Below the pieces are notes generated by a model. The model saw only the letters and a program-made list of their open reading frames with translations, did not search any database and was not told the origin of the DNA. Both the position numbers and the translations under genes were made by a program. Below are positions 14,496-62,439 of a stretch of DNA of 62,439 nucleotides, piece by piece; position 1 is the first letter of the stretch; each line of letters starts with the position of its first letter. This stretch comes from Bacteroidales bacterium (GTDB lineage Bacteria > Bacteroidota > Bacteroidia > Bacteroidales > F082): NCBI GenBank assembly GCA_017466405.1, contig JAFTUF010000008.1, forward strand, positions 1-62,439. Reading direction: 5' to 3'.

Positions 14496-17237
14496 TCATC
14501 CGCATTTTGAATAGCCACAGTTCTTACAATGTTTGCAGCCGTCTTCATAAACCAGAGCTTCACCGCAGGTTGGACAAGTTTCTTTGTCTTTTGTTCCATC
14601 AGGAATATAACGTTTCAAAGCTCTAGCAATACCATTCTTCCATGCATTGATATTGTCTTCATCAACACTCAAGTTTTGAATAAGATTAACCACATTGGTG
14701 ATTGGCATGCCATGACGCAAGATACCTGAAATGAGTTTTGCATAGTTCCAGAACTCAGGACTGAACGAACGCGACAATCCCTCAATAGTAACTTTATATC
14801 CTTGCTTGTCTAAGAACTGAAGGTCATATCTTGTCTTACCTTCGACTTTATTCTTTGTAATCCATGCTGTCTCGACGAAAGGAGGCAGATAGAAGTCGTC
14901 TTGTTTTCCGAGGAAGATCTCGTAAGGTTTTCCATTGATCTTTCCTACGAAAGCAATCCATTTCTCGTAGTTATTTTGGAAACGCACGACGTCACATTCG
15001 AGCGTTTTAGGACGTATTGGTGAATGTGTCTCGATGATGTCATTTTCAGAGTTTCTCTTGTTGTCATCTTTCTTATTAGATACGAGCACACCTGTACGTG
15101 AACCATCGCGATAGATTGTCATACCTTTACAGCCACATTCCCATGCTGTGAGGTAAATCTGACTTACCAACTCTTCTGTTGTCTCAGCAGGAATGTTGAC
15201 AGTGACGCTGATAGAGTGGTCAACCCATTTCTGCATCTCGCCTTGCATCTTAACCTTACTGACCCAGTCGATGTCGTTGGCTGTTGCTTTATAATAAGGT
15301 GATTTATTGATTACCTCTTGAAGTTTTTCGTCGTCGTAAGCTTTCACCTCTTCGACGTCGTAACCGTTCACCTCTAACCAAGTGATGAACTTAGGATGGA
15401 AGACATTATACTCTTCGAAGGAGTTTCCGTCATTGTCGGTGAATGACACTTTAGCGTTTTTGTCGTTTGGATTTACCTTACGGCGTCTCTTATATGATAC
15501 CATAAACACAGGCTCGATACCTGAAGTTGTCTGCGTGCAGATGCTCACTGTTCCTGTAGGAGCTATGGTGAGCATAGCAATATTACGGCGACCGTATTTC
15601 ACCATATCTTGATAGAAGTCTTCGTTCATCTCGCGGAGTCTGTTGATGAAAGGATTGTTTTCTTCGCGTTTGGCATCATAAACTTCGAATGCGCCGCGTT
15701 CCTTAGCGAGGTTGACAGAAGATCTGTAAGCTTCGTAAGCGAGTAGTTTTTGTACAGATGTAGAGAACTCGATAGCTTCGTCGGATGCATAACGTTTTCC
15801 GAGAGCTGCGAGCATATCTCCTTCAGCGGTAATACCGATACCGGTACGTCTTCCCTGAAGGGCTTTTCTGCGTATATTTTTCCAGAGGTCAACTTCACAT
15901 CTCTTGACCTCATCGCTTTCTGGGTCGGAATAGACTTTCTCGAGGATAGCGTCGATCTTCTCTATTTCGAGGTCGATGATGTCGTCCATTATTCTCTGAG
16001 CTATAGCGACATGTTTAGCGAAGAGTTCTGCGTTGAAACGAGCCTCAGGTGTGAAAGGATGTTCAACATAACTATAGAGGTTCATGGCAAGGAGGCGGCA
16101 GCTGTCGTAAGCGCACAATGGAATCTCACCACATGGGTTGGTGCTCAATGTCTTGAACCCTAAGTCGGCGTAACAATCTGGAATAGACTCACGAGTGATG
16201 GTATCCCAGAAGAGCACTCCAGGCTCAGCCGACTGCCATGCGTTATGGATAATCTTATCCCACAACTTCTTGGCGTCTATCTCTTTTGTATATTTAGGGG
16301 TATCGGAATCGACAGGGTATCTTTGCATGAAAGGTTTACCTTCTTTCACTGCTTTCATGAAGTCGTCGCTGATACGTACGGAGACGTTGGCGTTGGTGAT
16401 TCTGCCTTGTTCCATCTTAGAGTCGATGAAATCCTCCGAGTCTGGGTGGTTGATGCTGATGCTCATCATCAATGCGCCGCGACGTCCGTCTTGTGCCACT
16501 TCTTTAGTGGAGTTGGAATAACGTTCCATGAAAGGCACCACGCCTGTTGAAGTAAGAGCGCAGTTTTTCACAGGGCTTCCAGCAGGACGGATGTGAGAGA
16601 GGTCGTGACCTACACCACCGCGACGTTTCATGAGCTGCACCTGTTCCTGATCTATCTTCATGATGGCTCCATACGAGTCGGAACTGCCATCGGTGCCGAT
16701 GACGAAACAATTAGACAAAGAAGAAATCTGGAAGTTATTTCCGATACCAGCCATAGGACTTCCTTGTGGCACTATGTATCTGAAGTTCTTGAGAACCTCA
16801 TATACTTCTTCCTCCGACATAGGATTAGGATATGTCTTCTCGATACGGGCGATCTCGGAAGCGATACGATGATGCATATCGTCTGGTGTCAACTCAAAAA
16901 TATTACCGTCGCTATCTTTCAAAGCGTACTTGTTCATCCAAACGTCGGCTGCAAGCTGGTCGCCGCCAAAATATTTTATCGTTGCCTCTTTAACTTCTTC
17001 TATAGAATAAGTTTTGTATTCTTTGTGCTCCATATCTTCAGTGTTGTCTTCTTTGTTATTTTCAGTGATGTCTTTTTTATCAATATCATTTTCCAAAACC
17101 TGCTCCTGAGTGAATTTGCTTTCATTTCTATAATCCATCAAAACAGCATCGTGAGATTTTTCAAGCTCGACGCTAACGCTCTCAGTTTCCATAATCGAAA
17201 ACAAATCCTGCATGCCCTTTGTATGCTTCTTTGCCAT
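14496..17237 (-). CDS. nrdJ: B12-dependent (class II) ribonucleotide reductase
   Basis: 913 residues. Reduces ribonucleotides to deoxyribonucleotides with adenosylcobalamin as radical source. After a variable acidic N-terminus (1-65) the core shows SSLSNCFVIG (about 173-182), MKRRGGVGHDLSHIRPAGSP (about 203-222), the NPCGEIPLC loop (about 366-374) and IAPTGTVSICTQTTSGIEP. The C-terminal tail ends with two CxxC pairs (CPTCGEAL; CKHCKNCGYSKCG), the redox/zinc-ribbon tail typical of NrdJ. It works without oxygen or an iron protein, fitting an anaerobe dependent on B12. I saw no cobalamin riboswitch in the 231-base upstream gap. Confidence 0.95.
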   Translation of the reverse strand: MAKKHTKGMQDLFSIMETESVSVELEKSHDAVLMDYRNESKFTQEQVLENDIDKKDITENNKEDNTEDMEHKEYKTYSIEEVKEATIKYFGGDQLAADVWMNKYALKDSDGNIFELTPDDMHHRIASEIARIEKTYPNPMSEEEVYEVLKNFRYIVPQGSPMAGIGNNFQISSLSNCFVIGTDGSSDSYGAIMKIDQEQVQLMKRRGGVGHDLSHIRPAGSPVKNCALTSTGVVPFMERYSNSTKEVAQDGRRGALMMSISINHPDSEDFIDSKMEQGRITNANVSVRISDDFMKAVKEGKPFMQRYPVDSDTPKYTKEIDAKKLWDKIIHNAWQSAEPGVLFWDTITRESIPDCYADLGFKTLSTNPCGEIPLCAYDSCRLLAMNLYSYVEHPFTPEARFNAELFAKHVAIAQRIMDDIIDLEIEKIDAILEKVYSDPESDEVKRCEVDLWKNIRRKALQGRRTGIGITAEGDMLAALGKRYASDEAIEFSTSVQKLLAYEAYRSSVNLAKERGAFEVYDAKREENNPFINRLREMNEDFYQDMVKYGRRNIAMLTIAPTGTVSICTQTTSGIEPVFMVSYKRRRKVNPNDKNAKVSFTDNDGNSFEEYNVFHPKFITWLEVNGYDVEEVKAYDDEKLQEVINKSPYYKATANDIDWVSKVKMQGEMQKWVDHSISVTVNIPAETTEELVSQIYLTAWECGCKGMTIYRDGSRTGVLVSNKKDDNKRNSENDIIETHSPIRPKTLECDVVRFQNNYEKWIAFVGKINGKPYEIFLGKQDDFYLPPFVETAWITKNKVEGKTRYDLQFLDKQGYKVTIEGLSRSFSPEFWNYAKLISGILRHGMPITNVVNLIQNLSVDEDNINAWKNGIARALKRYIPDGTKDKETCPTCGEALVYEDGCKHCKNCGYSKCG

Positions 17238-46407: not shown

Positions 46408-46492
46408 GGGCGTTCCGGCTATCGCCGTCGGGCTTTCCGCTATATCTTTTTCCGCTTCGCTCCAAAAGGATGCCGCTCCAATCCCTAACGCG
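46408..46492 (-). repeat. Dispersed GGAGCGGCATCC element, copy 2 (inverted)
   Basis: On the minus strand it reads GCGTTAGGGATTGGAGCGGC..AAGATATAGCGGAAAGCCCG..GGAACGCC, matching both ends of copy 1 (32432) with a shorter, different middle (GAAGCGGA). Confidence 0.85.
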
Positions 46493-46524
46493 GAGCGGCT
46501 GCTATAAAAACAACGCTTCACTTG

Positions 46525-56719: not shown

Positions 56720-57673
56720 ATGGATGATTCTATGAGTTATAAACTAACTGATAAGATGCGTGACTTGGTCAAGGACAACAGTGCACTGATCCTTGTTATG
56801 GGACGTTTTGGTATATCGTTGGGATTTGGCGACAAATCGGTTAGAGAGGTGTGCCGAATGCACCACGTTAACGAAAATACATTCTTAGAAGTTGTTAATT
56901 TTGTTTCAAACAAAGACTACAATTATGAATCAATCTCATTATCATCGCTTATCGGCTATCTGAAACAGGCTCACGAATATTATTTGGATTTTAATTTGCC
57001 AAATATCCGTCGAAAACTTATTGAAGCCATTGATTGTTCGGGGACAGATGAACTCGCAATGCTAATTTTGAAATTCTATGATGAGTATGTAACCGAGGTG
57101 AGAAAGCATATGGAGTATGAAAATGAGGTGGTATTCTCCTATGTAGAACAATTATCGCAAGGATTCCTGAATCGCAATTTCACTATCTCTAATTTTGCTG
57201 GAAAGCACACCCCTATTGGCTATAAACTTAAAGAGCTGAAAGATATTATCATTCGTTATTATCCCGAAAAGAACAACTACCAACTTAATCAGGTACTTTT
57301 AGAAATCATCTTAAGTGAGCAAGATTTGACTTCGCACTGTATGATTGAAGATAAGTTATTTGTCCCTGCTGTCAAACTCGTGGAACAACAATTGAAAAAG
57401 AGTGGGCAGATTCAATACACCGATGAAACAGATAGCGAAAGCATCGAAAAAGATAAGTTGGAGGTGCTGAGCGATAGAGAGAAAGATATTATTATTTGCG
57501 TGGCCAAGGGTATGAACAATAAGGAGATTGCAGATTATCTGTATCTATCAGTTCATACAGTAACGACCCATCGCCGCAATATATCCAATAAATTGCAGAT
57601 TCACACCACCGCAGGCTTAATCATCTATGCCATTGCCAATAAACTGGTAAACATTGAGGAGATACAGAAGTAA
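56720..57673 (+). CDS. RIC/YtfE-like di-iron domain fused to a LuxR-type DNA-binding domain
   Basis: 317 residues. The N-terminus (about 38-62, SVREVCRMHHVNENTFLEVV) resembles the ScdA_N segment. The following helical domain has His85, His130, Glu134, His163, His206 and Glu210, nearly the same spacing as the di-iron ligands I recall for E. coli YtfE (84, 129, 133, 160, 204, 208). The C-terminus (250-311) is a LuxR/GerE helix-turn-helix (LSDREKDIIICVAKGMNNKE, HTVTTHRRNISNKL). It is divergent from the haem operon and so a likely iron-, oxygen- or NO-responsive regulator of it. Confidence 0.85.
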   Translation: MDDSMSYKLTDKMRDLVKDNSALILVMGRFGISLGFGDKSVREVCRMHHVNENTFLEVVNFVSNKDYNYESISLSSLIGYLKQAHEYYLDFNLPNIRRKLIEAIDCSGTDELAMLILKFYDEYVTEVRKHMEYENEVVFSYVEQLSQGFLNRNFTISNFAGKHTPIGYKLKELKDIIIRYYPEKNNYQLNQVLLEIILSEQDLTSHCMIEDKLFVPAVKLVEQQLKKSGQIQYTDETDSESIEKDKLEVLSDREKDIIICVAKGMNNKEIADYLYLSVHTVTTHRRNISNKLQIHTTAGLIIYAIANKLVNIEEIQK

Positions 57674-57801: not shown

Positions 57802-58122
57802 ATGACGAAAAGTACAATGGGAACTAAATTGCCCCGAAAATTGGAGCAGAAAATGCAGGTCGTTGGTGAGCAGATAAAACTTGCCCGCTTGCGTCGAAAT
57901 TTGAGTGTTGCACAGGTGGCTGAGCGTGCTACTTGTTCTACACTAACTGTTTCACGCATAGAGAAAGGTGCGCCAACAGTGGCGATTGGCATCTATCTGC
58001 GAGTGTTGTACGCTCTGCAGCTCGATGATGATATTCTCTCGTTGGCAAAGGGTGACGCTCTTGGCAGGGCATTGCAGGATATGAATTTACCGCAGCGTGA
58101 AAGGGCATCTAAAAAAGAGTGA
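57802..58122 (+). CDS. hipB: HipB-like XRE family antitoxin/repressor
   Basis: 106 residues. The helix-turn-helix occupies about 25-80: GEQIKLARLRRNLSVAQVAE, then TVSRIEKGAPTVAIG. The C-terminal tail is basic and flexible. In HipBA systems HipB represses the operon and neutralises the HipA kinase. Here the toxin gene that follows after six bases is broken, so HipB may be an orphan. Confidence 0.85.
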   Translation: MTKSTMGTKLPRKLEQKMQVVGEQIKLARLRRNLSVAQVAERATCSTLTVSRIEKGAPTVAIGIYLRVLYALQLDDDILSLAKGDALGRALQDMNLPQRERASKKE

Positions 58123-58128
58123 TCGACT

Positions 58129-58479
58129 ATGAAGAAGTTGTATGTATATGCCGATTTTGATTGGCTGAAAGAGGTTGAATTAGTTGGAGAACTCGGCTAC
58201 GAATCACTTCGCGGCTCGGATAGCTATAGCTTCAAGTTTGCTGATAGCTGGATAAAAAAGTATAATGCTATCATCCTGAGTGAAGATCTTAACAACTATT
58301 CGGGATTACAATACACCCATCCGAATAAAGATATTTTCGGTTGCTTTGCCGATGCTCTTCCCGATAGGTGGGGACGCACTCTTCTGCTGCGTCGTGAGCA
58401 GATATTGGCACAATTGGTGTTTAATTCAAAAATCACCGCAAAACTAAATCCTTCTTTGTTATCATCCAAATATTTTTAG
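58129..58479 (+). pseudogene. hipA: HipA, N-terminal fragment only
   Basis: 116 residues against about 400-440 for HipA. Residues 1-95 match the N-terminal HipA domain (VYADFDWLKEVELVGELGYE; FGCFADALPDRWGRTLLLRR). After about REQILAQL (residue 96) the match stops and AT-rich unrelated sequence supplies a short tail and stop. The kinase domain, ATP site and Ser loop are missing. HipS of HipBST is a natural single N-subdomain of similar size, but no HipT kinase follows, so truncation is the simpler reading. Confidence 0.8.
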
Positions 58480-58622
58480 TTAATATTTATTTACTTTCAG
58501 AATAATTCTCATTTTTATGCAGTTCTTCAAGATTTTTTTTAAAAAGAATTAACACACATTTTTTTTGTTCGTAAAAACACACTTCACAGATTGACGGATT
58601 TTTTCAATCCGAATATGGTACG

Positions 58623-58644
58623 AACTTGACACGAAGGTGAGTCA
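58623..58644 (+). repeat. Flank motif alpha, copy 2
   Basis: AACTTGACACGAAGGTGAGT (first 20 of 22 bases), two differences from 45045-45066, eight bases before the stop codon of the minus-strand Abi gene. Confidence 0.7.
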
Positions 58645-58651
58645 TTGTAAT

Positions 58652-59314
58652 TTACGACCATCCCATTTCTTTTTTAATTTGTTCTTGTACATTTTCGAAT
58701 CTATCCATTTCCGTCAGCCATTCTGGCAAATCCTTATTTATCCATTCTAATATAAGCAGTAATTCATCATGAATTTCTTGTACTCTTTTCATATTCCAAC
58801 ATATTGACTCATTATGATATACTCTATTTCTAAACGCTCGAAATCTGTTAAGAGGTGCTGATACATTTTTCCTTTTGCGTTCTTTCTTAGGAATATATGG
58901 AAACGCTCGTCTTAAGTCTTTCCAAAGCAATCGTTCATATTCTGCATTAAGTAACGACACCCAAAAACCTAAAGTCAGTTCTGCAATGATTTTGGAAGTA
59001 GTGATTTGTTCATGTCGTCCAGCAATTTGTTTAGATGCTTGAGTTATGTATTTATTCAAGTTTGTCAGTCCTGGAGTATTTGCAAAAATGGCGTACCAGT
59101 CTTCACGTCCTGTCATTGTCTTTAGTTCACGGCTTAAGGCATTTCTCAGAGCAACTTCCAATACAGAGAGTGAGGTGTAAAACGCTTCTGTAAGTTTTAT
59201 GTTAGATTGATAATGTTTAACCGCTTTGCTTTCATCATTGGGGTATAAGATGAAATAGCGTTCCATTCGTTTTTCAGAAAAAACTTTTTCAAAAAATAGT
59301 TTGTTGTGTTTCAT
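58652..59314 (-). CDS. Abi_2/AbiF-type HEPN protein
   Basis: 220 residues, all helical, cytoplasmic. It opens with the Abi_2-like region MERYFILYPNDESKAVKHYQ (about 17-36) and SLSVLEVALRNALSREL, and has RFRAFRNRVYHNESICW (about 152-168), where RNRVYH is an R-x4-H HEPN ribonuclease motif. Abi_2 proteins (AbiD/AbiF) cause abortive infection, and some are neutralised by a neighbouring non-coding RNA; such systems have been proposed as Cas13 ancestors. A candidate small RNA lies directly upstream. The gene is enclosed by motifs alpha and beta. Confidence 0.8.
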   Translation of the reverse strand: MKHNKLFFEKVFSEKRMERYFILYPNDESKAVKHYQSNIKLTEAFYTSLSVLEVALRNALSRELKTMTGREDWYAIFANTPGLTNLNKYITQASKQIAGRHEQITTSKIIAELTLGFWVSLLNAEYERLLWKDLRRAFPYIPKKERKRKNVSAPLNRFRAFRNRVYHNESICWNMKRVQEIHDELLLILEWINKDLPEWLTEMDRFENVQEQIKKEMGWS

Positions 59315-59322
59315 AAAAATTG

Positions 59323-59394
59323 TATTTTTGCAATGCAGTCCCGGTAGTTCCTCTCCCAGCGACTCGATGCTGGTGATGAATCCGGGTTTTTTAT
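59323..59394 (+). ncRNA. Candidate small structured RNA beside the Abi gene
   Basis: A complete small transcription unit on the plus strand: -7 box TATTTTTG then CA (59323-59330), expected start near 59337, outer stem CCCGG/CCGGG (59340-59344 / 59382-59386), inner stem CCAGC/GCTGG (59356-59360 / 59369-59373) with loop GACTCGAT, then six T's (59387-59392). It is about 55 nt. The same DNA lies in the Abi mRNA leader read from the other strand, so a fold on either strand is possible; the T-run favours plus. Confidence 0.6.
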
Positions 59395-59422
59395 TTTGGT
59401 TTGATCCTTAAAGTTTCCTTAC

Positions 59423-59430
59423 AAAAGTAT
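59423..59430 (-). promoter_or_regulatory. -7 box of the Abi gene
   Basis: TACTTTTG on the minus strand, giving a leader of roughly 100 nt that includes the complement of the candidate small RNA. Confidence 0.5.
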
Positions 59431-59450
59431 AAAGAAAAATCTTCGCTTCT

Positions 59451-59505
59451 ACATTTTTAACATTTTTTAACTTTTCGAAGTGTTATGAAGGTTATCGAGG
59501 GATTT
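59451..59505 (+). repeat. Flank motif beta, copy 2
   Basis: Matches 46292-46346 at 50 of 55 positions, same orientation. Confidence 0.85.
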
Positions 59506-59657
59506 TTGGGGACGGGTTTTGGGAACGGAAGCGGGTTTGGGGAACGGGAGTTTTGTACGGATGTGGCTATTTATCATTTATCTGAATCCATCTTCTTTGC
59601 ATTTGAAAAATCATCAAAATTTCAAAGGTGATATGACTAATGAATATTCAATAGAAG

Positions 59658-59780
59658 GTGCTGTTTCTTAAGCAACGTATTGAAGCAATGCATGAAGATT
59701 GCATTCTTTTTCGTTCGGATTTTCCTGAATATCATACTGAATTTGTAAAAATTTTATCTGAGCTGACAGCAGATATTTAA
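59658..59780 (+). pseudogene. Possible C-terminal gene remnant
   Basis: An open stretch from GTG reads QRIEAMHEDCILFRSDFPEY and on to SELTADI-stop, with protein-like composition, but no promoter and an upstream stop directly before it. I do not recognise it. It may be the tail of a deleted gene. Confidence 0.25.
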
Positions 59781-59805
59781 AGAAACATTTACTTGTCATA
59801 TTAAG

Positions 59806-60083: not shown

Positions 60084-60231
60084 ACGGTAAAATCGCCAAA
60101 TTTTAATAGCTATACGGGAATGAGTGTTGAATGTTCACGTCTTTTAGGCGTGAACTATTCGTGCTTATTTGTATAGCAGGGCGTTTGGCGATGCCTACCG
60201 TGTAGATAAGCAATCTTCGAATAGTTTCACG
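60084..60231 (+). promoter_or_regulatory. Structured, switch-like leader of the methylase genes
   Basis: Nested perfect stems: ACGGTA/TACCGT (60084-60089/60196-60201), ATCGCCAAA/TTTGGCGAT (60092-60100/60184-60192), GCTATAC/GTATAGC (60109-60115/60171-60177), GTTCACG/CGTGAAC (60133-60139/60149-60155). A competing fold pairs CGTGAACTATTCG and TGCTTAT (60149-60168) with ATAAGCA (60206-60212) and CGAATAGTTTCACG (60218-60231), which runs straight into a T-rich stretch. The two states exclude each other, as in attenuators. A similar leader recurs, to my memory, in Bacteroides mobile elements. Confidence 0.7.
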
Positions 60232-60282
60232 CTTTTCTTTTTGCTTTTCGATTTGTGGCAAAGGCTCGTAAATTTTCAGCCT

Positions 60283-60975
60283 ATGCCAAACTTACAACAA
60301 TCTTCTCAAATCAAGTCTAAAGAAAGGGTGGCTCAGCGTGGCGAGGTGTTTACCGCTGAACGTGAGGTGAATGCTATGCTCGACCTCGTTGAGAATGAGT
60401 GCCTGCGTCCTGATTCTCGTTTTCTGGAGCCTGCTTGCGGCGACGGGAATTTCCTTTCGGCTATCCTTAAACGCAAACTCGCTGAGCTTCGCAGGAAATA
60501 TAAGAAGAGTCCTCGTGATTATGAAAAACAGTCGATAGTGGCAATCGGAAGTCTTTATGGCGTTGACATAATGAACGATAATGTGCTTGCTTGTCGCGAG
60601 CGTCTTTTCTCTATCTGGAACGAAGAATATACCGCTCATTGCAAGGCTGAGGCTTGCGACGAGACTCGCAAAGCCGCCAAATTCATTATCAGCCGTAACA
60701 TCATTAACGGTAATGCGCTGACATTGATGTGCGTTGATGCTGATGGAAAAGACACTTCAGCTCCAATAGTCTTCTCCGAATGGTCGCTGATAAGCGGCAC
60801 TCAGATGCAGCGTTCCGACTATACAATGTCCGACCTTCTGACTTATAACGATACGAGTGTGGAAAATGGCATGGGCAATCTCTTCGCACTCAGCGAAGAC
60901 CAGAAGGAAGAAGGCGGAATTTTCCTGAGAAGATATATTACTCATTATAAAAAGGTGCAGGATTATGGAGAATAG
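60283..60975 (+). CDS. N6-DNA-methylase-like protein with motif I only
   Basis: 230 residues from ATG at 60283 (MPNLQQSSQIKS). A TTG at 60169 lies inside the structured leader and is unlikely. The SAM-binding motif I is clear (FLEPACGDGNFLSAILKRKL, about 46-65), preceded by EVFTAEREVNAMLDLVE as in Eco57I/type I methylases. The expected NPPY motif is not found; the region where it should lie reads IVFSEWSLISG. It overlaps the next methylase gene by 11 bases, so the two are coupled and may form one enzyme or a regulatory pair. Confidence 0.75.
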   Translation: MPNLQQSSQIKSKERVAQRGEVFTAEREVNAMLDLVENECLRPDSRFLEPACGDGNFLSAILKRKLAELRRKYKKSPRDYEKQSIVAIGSLYGVDIMNDNVLACRERLFSIWNEEYTAHCKAEACDETRKAAKFIISRNIINGNALTLMCVDADGKDTSAPIVFSEWSLISGTQMQRSDYTMSDLLTYNDTSVENGMGNLFALSEDQKEEGGIFLRRYITHYKKVQDYGE

Positions 60976-62439
60976 TTTGTTTCATAACGTATATAATCCT
61001 GACGTTCTGTCGTGCATCGCCAATCTTAGCAATGACGAGGTTTTCACTCCTCCCGAGTTGGCTAACAAGATCATAGATATGCTTCCGCAAGAATTGTTTG
61101 AGAATCCTGACACGACTTTCCTCGACCCTTGTTGCAAAAGCGGGGTGTTCTTGCGCGAAATAGCGAAACGACTGATTAAAGGTCTTGAACGACAAATACC
61201 TGACCTTGAAAAACGTATTGAGCATATATTCTCGAAACAGCTTTTCGGCATTGCCATTACCGAACTTACAAGTCTGCTTTCACGACGCAGCGTTTATTGC
61301 AGCAAATTTCCGAGCAGCGAGTTCTCGGCATATCAGTTTCCGGAAGACAAACCGCAAGGAAACATAATATTCCAGCGCATCAATCACAGTTGGAAAGACG
61401 GCAAATGTATCTATTGCGGAGCCTCACAAAACACATACGAGCGTGGAAACGAATTAGAGACACACGCTTATCAATTTATTCATAACATAGACATAACCAA
61501 AATATTCAATATGAAATTCGATGTGATTATAGGAAATCCGCCTTATCAATTAAGTGACGGAGGTGCGCAAGCTAGTGCAAGACCATTATATCATCTTTTT
61601 GTGCAGCAAGCGAAAAAACTAAATCCAAGATATCTTACTATGATTATTCCAGCAAGGTGGTATGCTGGAGGAAAAGGTCTTGATAATTTCAGGGATGAAA
61701 TGATAAACGACAAGCGCATACGGGTTTTACATGATTATGTGGATGCATCGGAGTGTTTTAGCGGTGTTGAAATTAAAGGCGGTGTATGTTACTTCTTATG
61801 GGATAAAGACCATTCTGGAGAGTGTGAAATATTTAAACATAAAGGTAATGAGGTCGATATTTCAAAGAGATATTTGGTTGAAAAAGGAGAGAGTATTTTT
61901 ATTCGAGAAAACAAACTAATCTCAATTATGAGAAAGGTTTGGGCTAATAGTGATATAGAAAAAGATTCGTTTGAAACTATTGTTTCTTCCATGAAACCAT
62001 ATGGTCTTAGAGGCGATTTCTTTAAAGATCCATCGAAATATAATCTGCCCCCAATAAAAGAAGTTGCATCTGATGGAGACTTAAGAATATTAGGACTAGA
62101 TGGATTGAAAAGAGTGTATAGATATATTCCTAAAGATTATCCACTGCCTAAACGAGACCTACTAAATGATTATAAGATTTTTATTCCACGAAACGTTGGT
62201 AGTGGAGAATTTGGTGATTTTACACCTACAACAGTTATTGCCTCTCCGAAAGACTTATGTACAGAAACATTCGTTCAAGTTGGCCCATTCCATTCTGTGA
62301 ATGAGGCTAATAATGCAGACAAATATCTCCGTACAAAATTCTTTAGAGCTTTGATAAGTATAAGGAAACAAGACCAAGGTGCGTCAAAAGCAGTTTATCA
62401 TTTTGTTCCAATTCAAGATTTTTCAAAGTCTTGGACTGA
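60965..62439 (+). CDS. Eco57I-type DNA adenine methylase, cut by the window end
   Basis: 491 codons are visible and the frame is still open at the last base. Motif I is FLDPCCKSGVFLREIAKRL (about 48-66), a zinc-like CIYCG lies near residue 160, and catalytic motif IV is DVIIGNPPYQLSDGG (about 187-201), so it should transfer a methyl group to adenine N6. The C-terminal part (KGGVCYFLWDKDHSG and FVPIQDFSKSWT) resembles the specificity region of type II/III modification subunits. A restriction/helicase gene would be expected beyond the edge. Confidence 0.85.
   Translation, partial: MENSLFHNVYNPDVLSCIANLSNDEVFTPPELANKIIDMLPQELFENPDTTFLDPCCKSGVFLREIAKRLIKGLERQIPDLEKRIEHIFSKQLFGIAITELTSLLSRRSVYCSKFPSSEFSAYQFPEDKPQGNIIFQRINHSWKDGKCIYCGASQNTYERGNELETHAYQFIHNIDITKIFNMKFDVIIGNPPYQLSDGGAQASARPLYHLFVQQAKKLNPRYLTMIIPARWYAGGKGLDNFRDEMINDKRIRVLHDYVDASECFSGVEIKGGVCYFLWDKDHSGECEIFKHKGNEVDISKRYLVEKGESIFIRENKLISIMRKVWANSDIEKDSFETIVSSMKPYGLRGDFFKDPSKYNLPPIKEVASDGDLRILGLDGLKRVYRYIPKDYPLPKRDLLNDYKIFIPRNVGSGEFGDFTPTTVIASPKDLCTETFVQVGPFHSVNEANNADKYLRTKFFRALISIRKQDQGASKAVYHFVPIQDFSKSWT

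Follow-up and report, generated by a model that had tools for sequence, protein, structure and literature searches.

A divergently encoded small RNA beside an AbiF-fold HEPN protein in Bacteroidales: a candidate RNA-controlled toxin-antitoxin or abortive-infection module

In type III toxin-antitoxin systems (ToxIN, CptIN, TenpIN), an RNA antitoxin, usually encoded as colinear tandem repeats, binds and blocks a ribonuclease toxin. A similar logic is proposed here for a predicted HEPN ribonuclease gene and a small RNA located near one end of a 62,439-nucleotide contig from a Bacteroidales bacterium (JAFTUF010000008.1; this whole stretch is called the window). As in type III systems, a conserved structured RNA is encoded next to the putative toxin, but type III toxins have another fold, and the window module combines a HEPN protein with a single-copy RNA that is mostly divergent among its relatives. 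AbiF/AbiD proteins and their abiF RNA offer another comparison, and a 2017 paper is said to be the source of that RNA motif. Several precedents are relevant to the window pair. The C. difficile RNA RCd22 neutralises AbiF through direct binding (PMC12373285), the PbAbiF nuclease is reportedly inhibited by two bulge nucleotides of its RNA, AbiFr (PMC12737573), and the PbAbiF family together with its RNA has been proposed as ancestral to Cas13 (PMC12737573, PMC12165695). PD-T4-5 has been described as a plasmid-borne abortive-infection gene, recovered by functional selection in E. coli and distantly related to AbiF/D (PMC9519451).

The window locus is most probably (at a rough probability of 0.75) a two-part toxin-antitoxin or abortive-infection module in which a HEPN ribonuclease would be bound and blocked by the divergent RNA of about 60 nucleotides. 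A sequence-only reading of this DNA had proposed an AbiF-like HEPN protein with an adjacent structured RNA, and that pairing has held up through gene linkage, covariation, conserved promoters and terminators in two phyla and a structural match to PbAbiF; the RNA itself, however, is not the abiF RNA of Rfam. The small transcription unit begins about 20 bases from the ATG of the gene on the plus strand, and its upstream promoter box falls within the first codons of the gene (Table 1). The -7 box, hairpin and T-run described by the sequence-only reading are present, and its 220-residue frame with an RNRVYH motif is equally borne out. The Bacteroidota -33/-7 promoter consensus is the basis for naming TTTG, TATTTTTG and TACTTTTG as boxes. 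TACTTTTG is placed past the end of the RNA, so the gene would have an mRNA leader (about 59415-59315) complementary to the small RNA over its whole length. Covariance model R1 scores 82.5 bits at 59332-59394, a circular figure given that the window sequence is among the 90 that built the model.

Table 1. Features of the window locus and loci of the class B RNA
Feature	Position	Strand	Basis
Abi-like HEPN-fold protein, predicted ribonuclease toxin, 220 aa	58652..59314	-	open reading frame
HEPN catalytic motif R-N-R-V-Y-H, residues 162-167	58814..58831	-	translation and alignment A3
Small-RNA promoter: TTTG (59300-59303) and TATTTTTG (59323-59330)	59300..59330	+	sequence; TAnnTTTG conservation
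Small RNA, about 60 nt, oriented divergently from the gene, with ends deduced from its promoter and T-run	59335..59394	+	model R1 match
Covarying core hairpin: outer stem CCCGG (59340-59344)/CCGGG (59382-59386), inner stem CCAG/CUGG	59340..59386	+	
T-run (TTTTTT) of intrinsic terminator using the core hairpin	59387..59392	+	
Likely -7 box of the HEPN gene, TACTTTTG	59422..59429	-	sequence; gene-strand TAnnTTTG in relatives
Class B loci	L015, L018-L029, L031, L197-L207		model R2 matches

The RNA, here called class A, travels with the gene across Bacteroidota. Among 173 genomes of the family, its DNA is present in 18 and a protein match in 29; a gene or gene piece adjoins the RNA in 14 of these 18 genomes, and in all 14 cases the two are divergent. 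A scan of genomes of the order with a pattern for the RNA core gave hits in 12 of 393, compared with 0 of 393 for a backwards control pattern, and the gene adjoins the core in 11 of the 12. When loci were selected by protein alone from GTDB genomes (the best 80 of 572 confirmed candidates), R1 found the RNA in 76 of the 80 (77 matches, one locus having two). Of the four loci lacking a match, two (L113, L118) are cut off by a contig end within the gene, and the gene match of the other two (L132, L134) runs only from residues 68 and 74, respectively. Of 75 loci, 73 have the promoter sequence TAnnTTTG ahead of the RNA, 59 of them with identical spacing, and the T-run at the end of class A RNAs begins with Ts that hardly vary. 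Past the RNA in divergent loci, the gene strand has TAnnTTTG within 120 nucleotides in 37 of 69 cases (within 36 nucleotides in 32 of the 37), versus 5 of 69 on the other strand.

The antisense divergent layout noticed in the window is real but not essential, since 71 of the 76 RNAs are divergent, four are colinear upstream of the gene (L114, L117, L123, L124) and one is downstream on the opposite strand (L136). In a tree of 107 proteins, from which L124 was omitted for a stop in frame, the other three colinear loci group together with full support (100/100) among divergent ones, so an inversion of the RNA relative to its gene, with the sequence retained, seems to have taken place. The class A RNA maps to this tree as one change, on a weak branch (60/2; recovered in 62% of bootstrap trees). 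Because its B and X labels predate model R2, the tree is used for class A and orientation only. A stop or frameshift interrupts the gene in 9 of 88 gene loci examined, and the RNA is retained in all nine. There are also genomes in which an intact RNA adjoins a damaged gene (L013, L014, L030), with an internal deletion in two and a shortened gene in one, and at L086 an extra class A copy (1008-1071) lies about 1.9 kb from a gene that has its own RNA.

Folding of the single RNA sequence is unremarkable (-21 kcal/mol, z -1.44, with 21 of 200 shuffles equal or better), and the RNA is judged real because comparison and conservation, rather than single-sequence folding, decide the matter. Two alignments were evaluated. 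The first (A2) holds 90 distinct RNAs gathered with two regular expressions in which some positions are fixed, with identical RNAs counted once and the truncated L006 and L141 excluded. The invariance of its columns 7-13 and 20-24 is therefore partly imposed by the gathering; the inner stem, which was left free, holds most of the two-sided changes. The second (A4) comprises 76 R1 matches from two phyla and, like alignment A7, is fitted to the structure of its model. Two doubtful rows were kept in it, one from the window itself (15612-15661; 19.6 bits, E 0.017), which is taken for chance, and one at L158 141-201 (26.7 bits).

Covariation among homologues, proposed as a check when the hairpin was first noticed, is evident in both alignments. 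In A2, 98.6% of cells are paired, two-sided changes affect 7 of 15 pairs, and 41 cells carry them versus 6.8 in shuffles; the corresponding values for A4 are 97.4%, 10 of 15 pairs, and 107 versus 22.4 cells, and none of 500 shuffles reached either cell count. A measure of further pair types did not rise above shuffles, which were as high in 233 of 500 (A2) and 77 of 500 (A4). Shifting the stem partners by one to three columns abolishes pairing. Furthermore, A2 contains 40 G-T or T-G cells versus no A-C or C-A cells, indicating that the folded RNA is the terminator-bearing strand. Between the core stems of the window RNA lie UUCCUCUC and UGAUGAA strands with small internal loops, and across the class the near-invariant parts other than the outer stem are UUCCUCUC on one side and UGA-GAA on the other. 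The terminal loop is the chief variable part, and no guide-like variable stretch was noticed in the RNA.

Searching with R1 in the loci that built it is circular, but the model was built from Bacteroidota only, such that gammaproteobacterial, viral and g276 loci are independent of its construction. Matches to the protein occur in 439 plasmid records, from which 14 loci were sampled (13 plus one from Bacteroides finegoldii). The RNA lies divergent and adjacent in 7 of 7 gammaproteobacterial plasmid homologues at 38-41% identity, found in Pantoea (three), Aeromonas, P. aeruginosa, E. coli and Xanthomonas, with the lowest score (24.7 bits) in P. aeruginosa; three of the seven plasmids are typed as conjugative. 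The B. finegoldii locus also has the RNA, and R1 found it in none of six plasmid homologues at 29-34% identity (Bosea, Acetobacter, Micromonospora, Leisingera, Agrobacterium, Serratia). An alignment of the seven gammaproteobacterial RNAs shows a TATAAT-like box and the shared core, plus a second hairpin and a terminator distinct from the core, which means that the core is conserved even where it does not serve as a terminator. The Bosea and Acetobacter loci (L179, L180) share a short element before the gene, approximately GGGCGCATRCC...GGCAGAGGCGNATCC, that is perhaps another RNA.

The protein has the features expected of a HEPN ribonuclease. In an alignment of 59 rows (A3), R162, N163, R164 and H167 are invariant, so that the R-phi-x3-H catalytic motif is conserved, and R[NDH]xxxH is present in 78 of 79 clean translations, a figure that is partly selected because the motif was one of two search anchors. 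The Abi_2-like label needs a correction: the protein's score for Pfam Abi_2 (PF07751) is sub-threshold (17.7 bits, E 0.0048, versus a cut-off of 25.6; the AbiF of the same genome scores 184 bits), so family membership by that profile does not hold. Its predicted fold matches the solved, RNA-bound PbAbiF (8VZ6) over the full length and is of the AbiF type. Searches of PDB sequences with the window protein, as a single sequence or as a profile, gave no match. Its sole match in PADLOC, a search that supplies no cut-off, is PD-T4-5 (36.7 bits, 6.5e-10, residues 12-183), whose profile has 309 positions compared with 220 residues here. Given the R-N-x3-H motif and the PbAbiF precedent, the protein is probably a dimeric HEPN ribonuclease with an AbiF/Abi_2 fold.

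The RNA, on the other hand, falls outside the known abiF family. Rfam abiF (RF03085) has no match in the window at the gathering score, none in 58400-59800 at E values up to 10, and none in two sets of 20 homologue loci. The model performs as it should, matching 25 of 172 family genomes, 23 of them above the cut-off. One match is in the window's own genome (G000:C51:19225-19261; L195 about 2026-2062), where a classical colinear abiF RNA precedes a PbAbiF-like gene, and hence two RNA-HEPN systems coexist in one genome. The AbiF/AbiD proteins that accompany abiF RNA, including PbAbiF and the C. difficile protein, have no sequence-level match to the window protein, and their RNAs are colinear upstream, both at the own-genome locus and in C. 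difficile, whereas the window-type RNA is mostly divergent. Class A is absent from Rfam 15. Neither class A nor class B, described below, turned up in text searches of the literature, which is weak evidence given that a prior listing in a Cell 2025 paper on AbiF and Cas13 (doi 10.1016/j.cell.2025.01.034) is possible.

A second RNA family, class B, accompanies more distant homologues from the same genus at 25-33% identity. Model R2, built from 11 class B loci, matches 25 of 27 distant-homologue loci, of which 14 are outside its alignment (one being an identical copy), with 12 RNAs divergent upstream and 13 downstream on the strand of the gene. In the R2 alignment, 94.4% of cells are paired and 31 are two-sided versus 11.2 in shuffles (0 of 500 as high), and two-sided change occurs at 8 pairs, a number equalled by 27 of 500 shuffles. 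Across 31 R2 matches (28 distinct), such change affects 9 of 13 pairs and 56 cells versus 15.2 (0 of 500); further pair types are again not above shuffles (295 of 500 as high). R2 matches occur in 24 of 172 family genomes but not in that of the window. The best R2 score in 12 abiF loci is 14.4 bits (E 0.75), and an Rfam search of nine class B loci gave no match at E values up to 5. Both R2 misses, the near-identical L016 and L017, lack class A and class B alike, and the element upstream of their gene, which has stems and a -7-type box, is of another kind.

If the module works as proposed, the RNA would be transcribed from its own promoter, with the conserved bulged hairpin also serving as terminator. 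It would then bind the HEPN dimer, where the near-invariant UUCCUCUC and UGA-GAA strands may block the active site, as suggested by AbiF, whose AbiFr is reported to sit at the HEPN active site in 8VZ6. Infection or stress that halts RNA synthesis could free the nuclease and lead to growth arrest. Both the toxicity of the nuclease and its blocking by RNA are proposed on the precedent of RCd22 and PbAbiF. In the divergent layout, pairing of the RNA with the antisense mRNA leader, together with transcriptional collision, would probably add repression. That layout also invites a type I-like explanation in which the RNA works solely by pairing with the fully overlapped toxin mRNA leader, as would be allowed by the divergent overlap, seen in the window and shared by 71 of 76 loci, and by the gene-strand promoter box past the RNA (37 of 69). 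This explanation is improbable, however, because the RNA is retained in the four colinear loci and the one downstream, and because compensatory stem changes and the excess of G-T over A-C cells point to a folded RNA rather than mere complementarity. The shifting orientation and position favour an RNA acting as a molecule in trans.

The RNA might instead be a cofactor or sensor and not an antidote alone, such that a HEPN-RNA complex detects a phage signal or is RNA-activated, foreshadowing guide RNAs. Near-invariant loop strands and the structural relationship to PbAbiF, a member of the family from which Cas13 is proposed to descend (PMC12737573, PMC12165695), lend this view some appeal, but variation lies chiefly in the terminal loop and no guide-like stretch was noticed, which leaves it an outside chance. 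Far less plausible is that the element acts only in cis, as a leader or attenuator of the toxin mRNA, and that no independent RNA exists. Colinear relatives do have the RNA terminator shortly upstream of the gene, and RCd22 is located in the abiF leader in C. difficile, but 73 of 75 loci have a promoter box dedicated to the RNA, which is encoded on the strand opposite the gene in 72 of 76 (71 upstream, 1 downstream). The window does allow a frame of 14 codons, yet of 90 RNAs only 61 and 76, respectively, retain the two candidate ATGs, and covariation and conservation in two phyla so strongly disfavour a DNA site or a chance hairpin that these explanations, like a peptide gene, hardly merit belief.

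The pairing of gene and RNA is not strict, as orphan RNAs are common in genus g276. R1 matches 16 of 395 genomes of the phylum, 13 of which belong to this genus, where the stems differ strongly. Among the 14 matches in this genus, four have a divergent gene, one has a gene fragment at a contig end, eight have no gene in the stretch examined, and one (L169, 26.1 bits) is taken for chance. Class A RNAs with no detectable gene in the stretch examined are those of L037, L043, L049, L050, L156, L157, L158, L164-L168 and L170; the same repeated downstream sequence lies beside L158 and L170 (both from G842) and L164 (G869). Viral loci with a homologue have the RNA at E <0.01 in 5 of 12 cases, plus L152 at E 0.038. 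A pattern with 17 fixed letters matched 36 viral contigs, which is near chance level by rough estimate, and the covariance model then gave 13 matches on those contigs at E values of 0.1 or less, 11 of them at 28 bits or more. The gene lies in the examined stretch for five of these matches, four of which were already among the viral contigs found earlier. Gene-less class A cores on phage- or prophage-like contigs are located at L208 7641-7708, L238 4106-4156, L211 1884-1922, L225 770-808, L219 857-920 and L236 2107-2169, and it is possible that such copies are stolen antidotes, or else remnants. A BLAST search of the RNA against phage genomes produced only matches of 20-21 nucleotides in four records, which are taken for chance.

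In abiF, class A and class B RNAs alike, an outer stem leads into a CCUCU-type stretch (CCCCU in some class B members), as is apparent when their motifs are aligned: CCCGCCAAGCCTCT...CAAAT..GCGGG for abiF, CCCGGCAGCCTCTGA..TCAAGCTGTCGGG for class B and CCCGGTAGTTCCTCTCCCAG..CTGGTGATGAATCCGGG for class A. Common descent of the three is a guess. A tentative joint reading, held at rather less than even odds, is that they belong to a hidden superfamily of HEPN-silencing RNAs, in which a CCUCU-type strand faces a purine strand in a bulged hairpin, each RNA partners a separate clade of AbiF-fold nucleases and can switch without constraint among divergent, colinear and downstream layouts, and RNA-only copies in phage and prophage contigs act as stolen antidotes.

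Tail to tail with the Abi gene, a HipB-like regulator is followed by a HipA that ends after its N-terminal domain (57802-58479). On the other side, an Eco57I-type methyltransferase gene (125 bits) preceded by a gene with a sub-threshold MmeI-like match occupies 60169-62437, possibly a defence neighbourhood. The window also contains a Flavo-1 RNA (RF01705) at 46422-46507 (43.4 versus a gathering score of 42) and, at 56720-57673, a protein that combines a hemerythrin-like domain with a LuxR-type DNA-binding end.

Class A and class B constitute second and third RNA families beside AbiF-like nucleases that are outside the catalogue, and class A extends through Bacteroidota, including a remote family, to Gammaproteobacteria. 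With their covariance models, many genes now labelled "hypothetical" could be annotated as belonging to RNA-controlled defence modules, and the two families make it possible to test directly whether RNA-only copies in phages serve to disarm such modules. Both classes would serve as independent natural experiments in the silencing of a HEPN nuclease by RNA and in the features available for making a guide RNA. If the superfamily reading is true, RNA-silenced HEPN nucleases, the proposed stock of Cas13, would be far more varied than the single abiF family.
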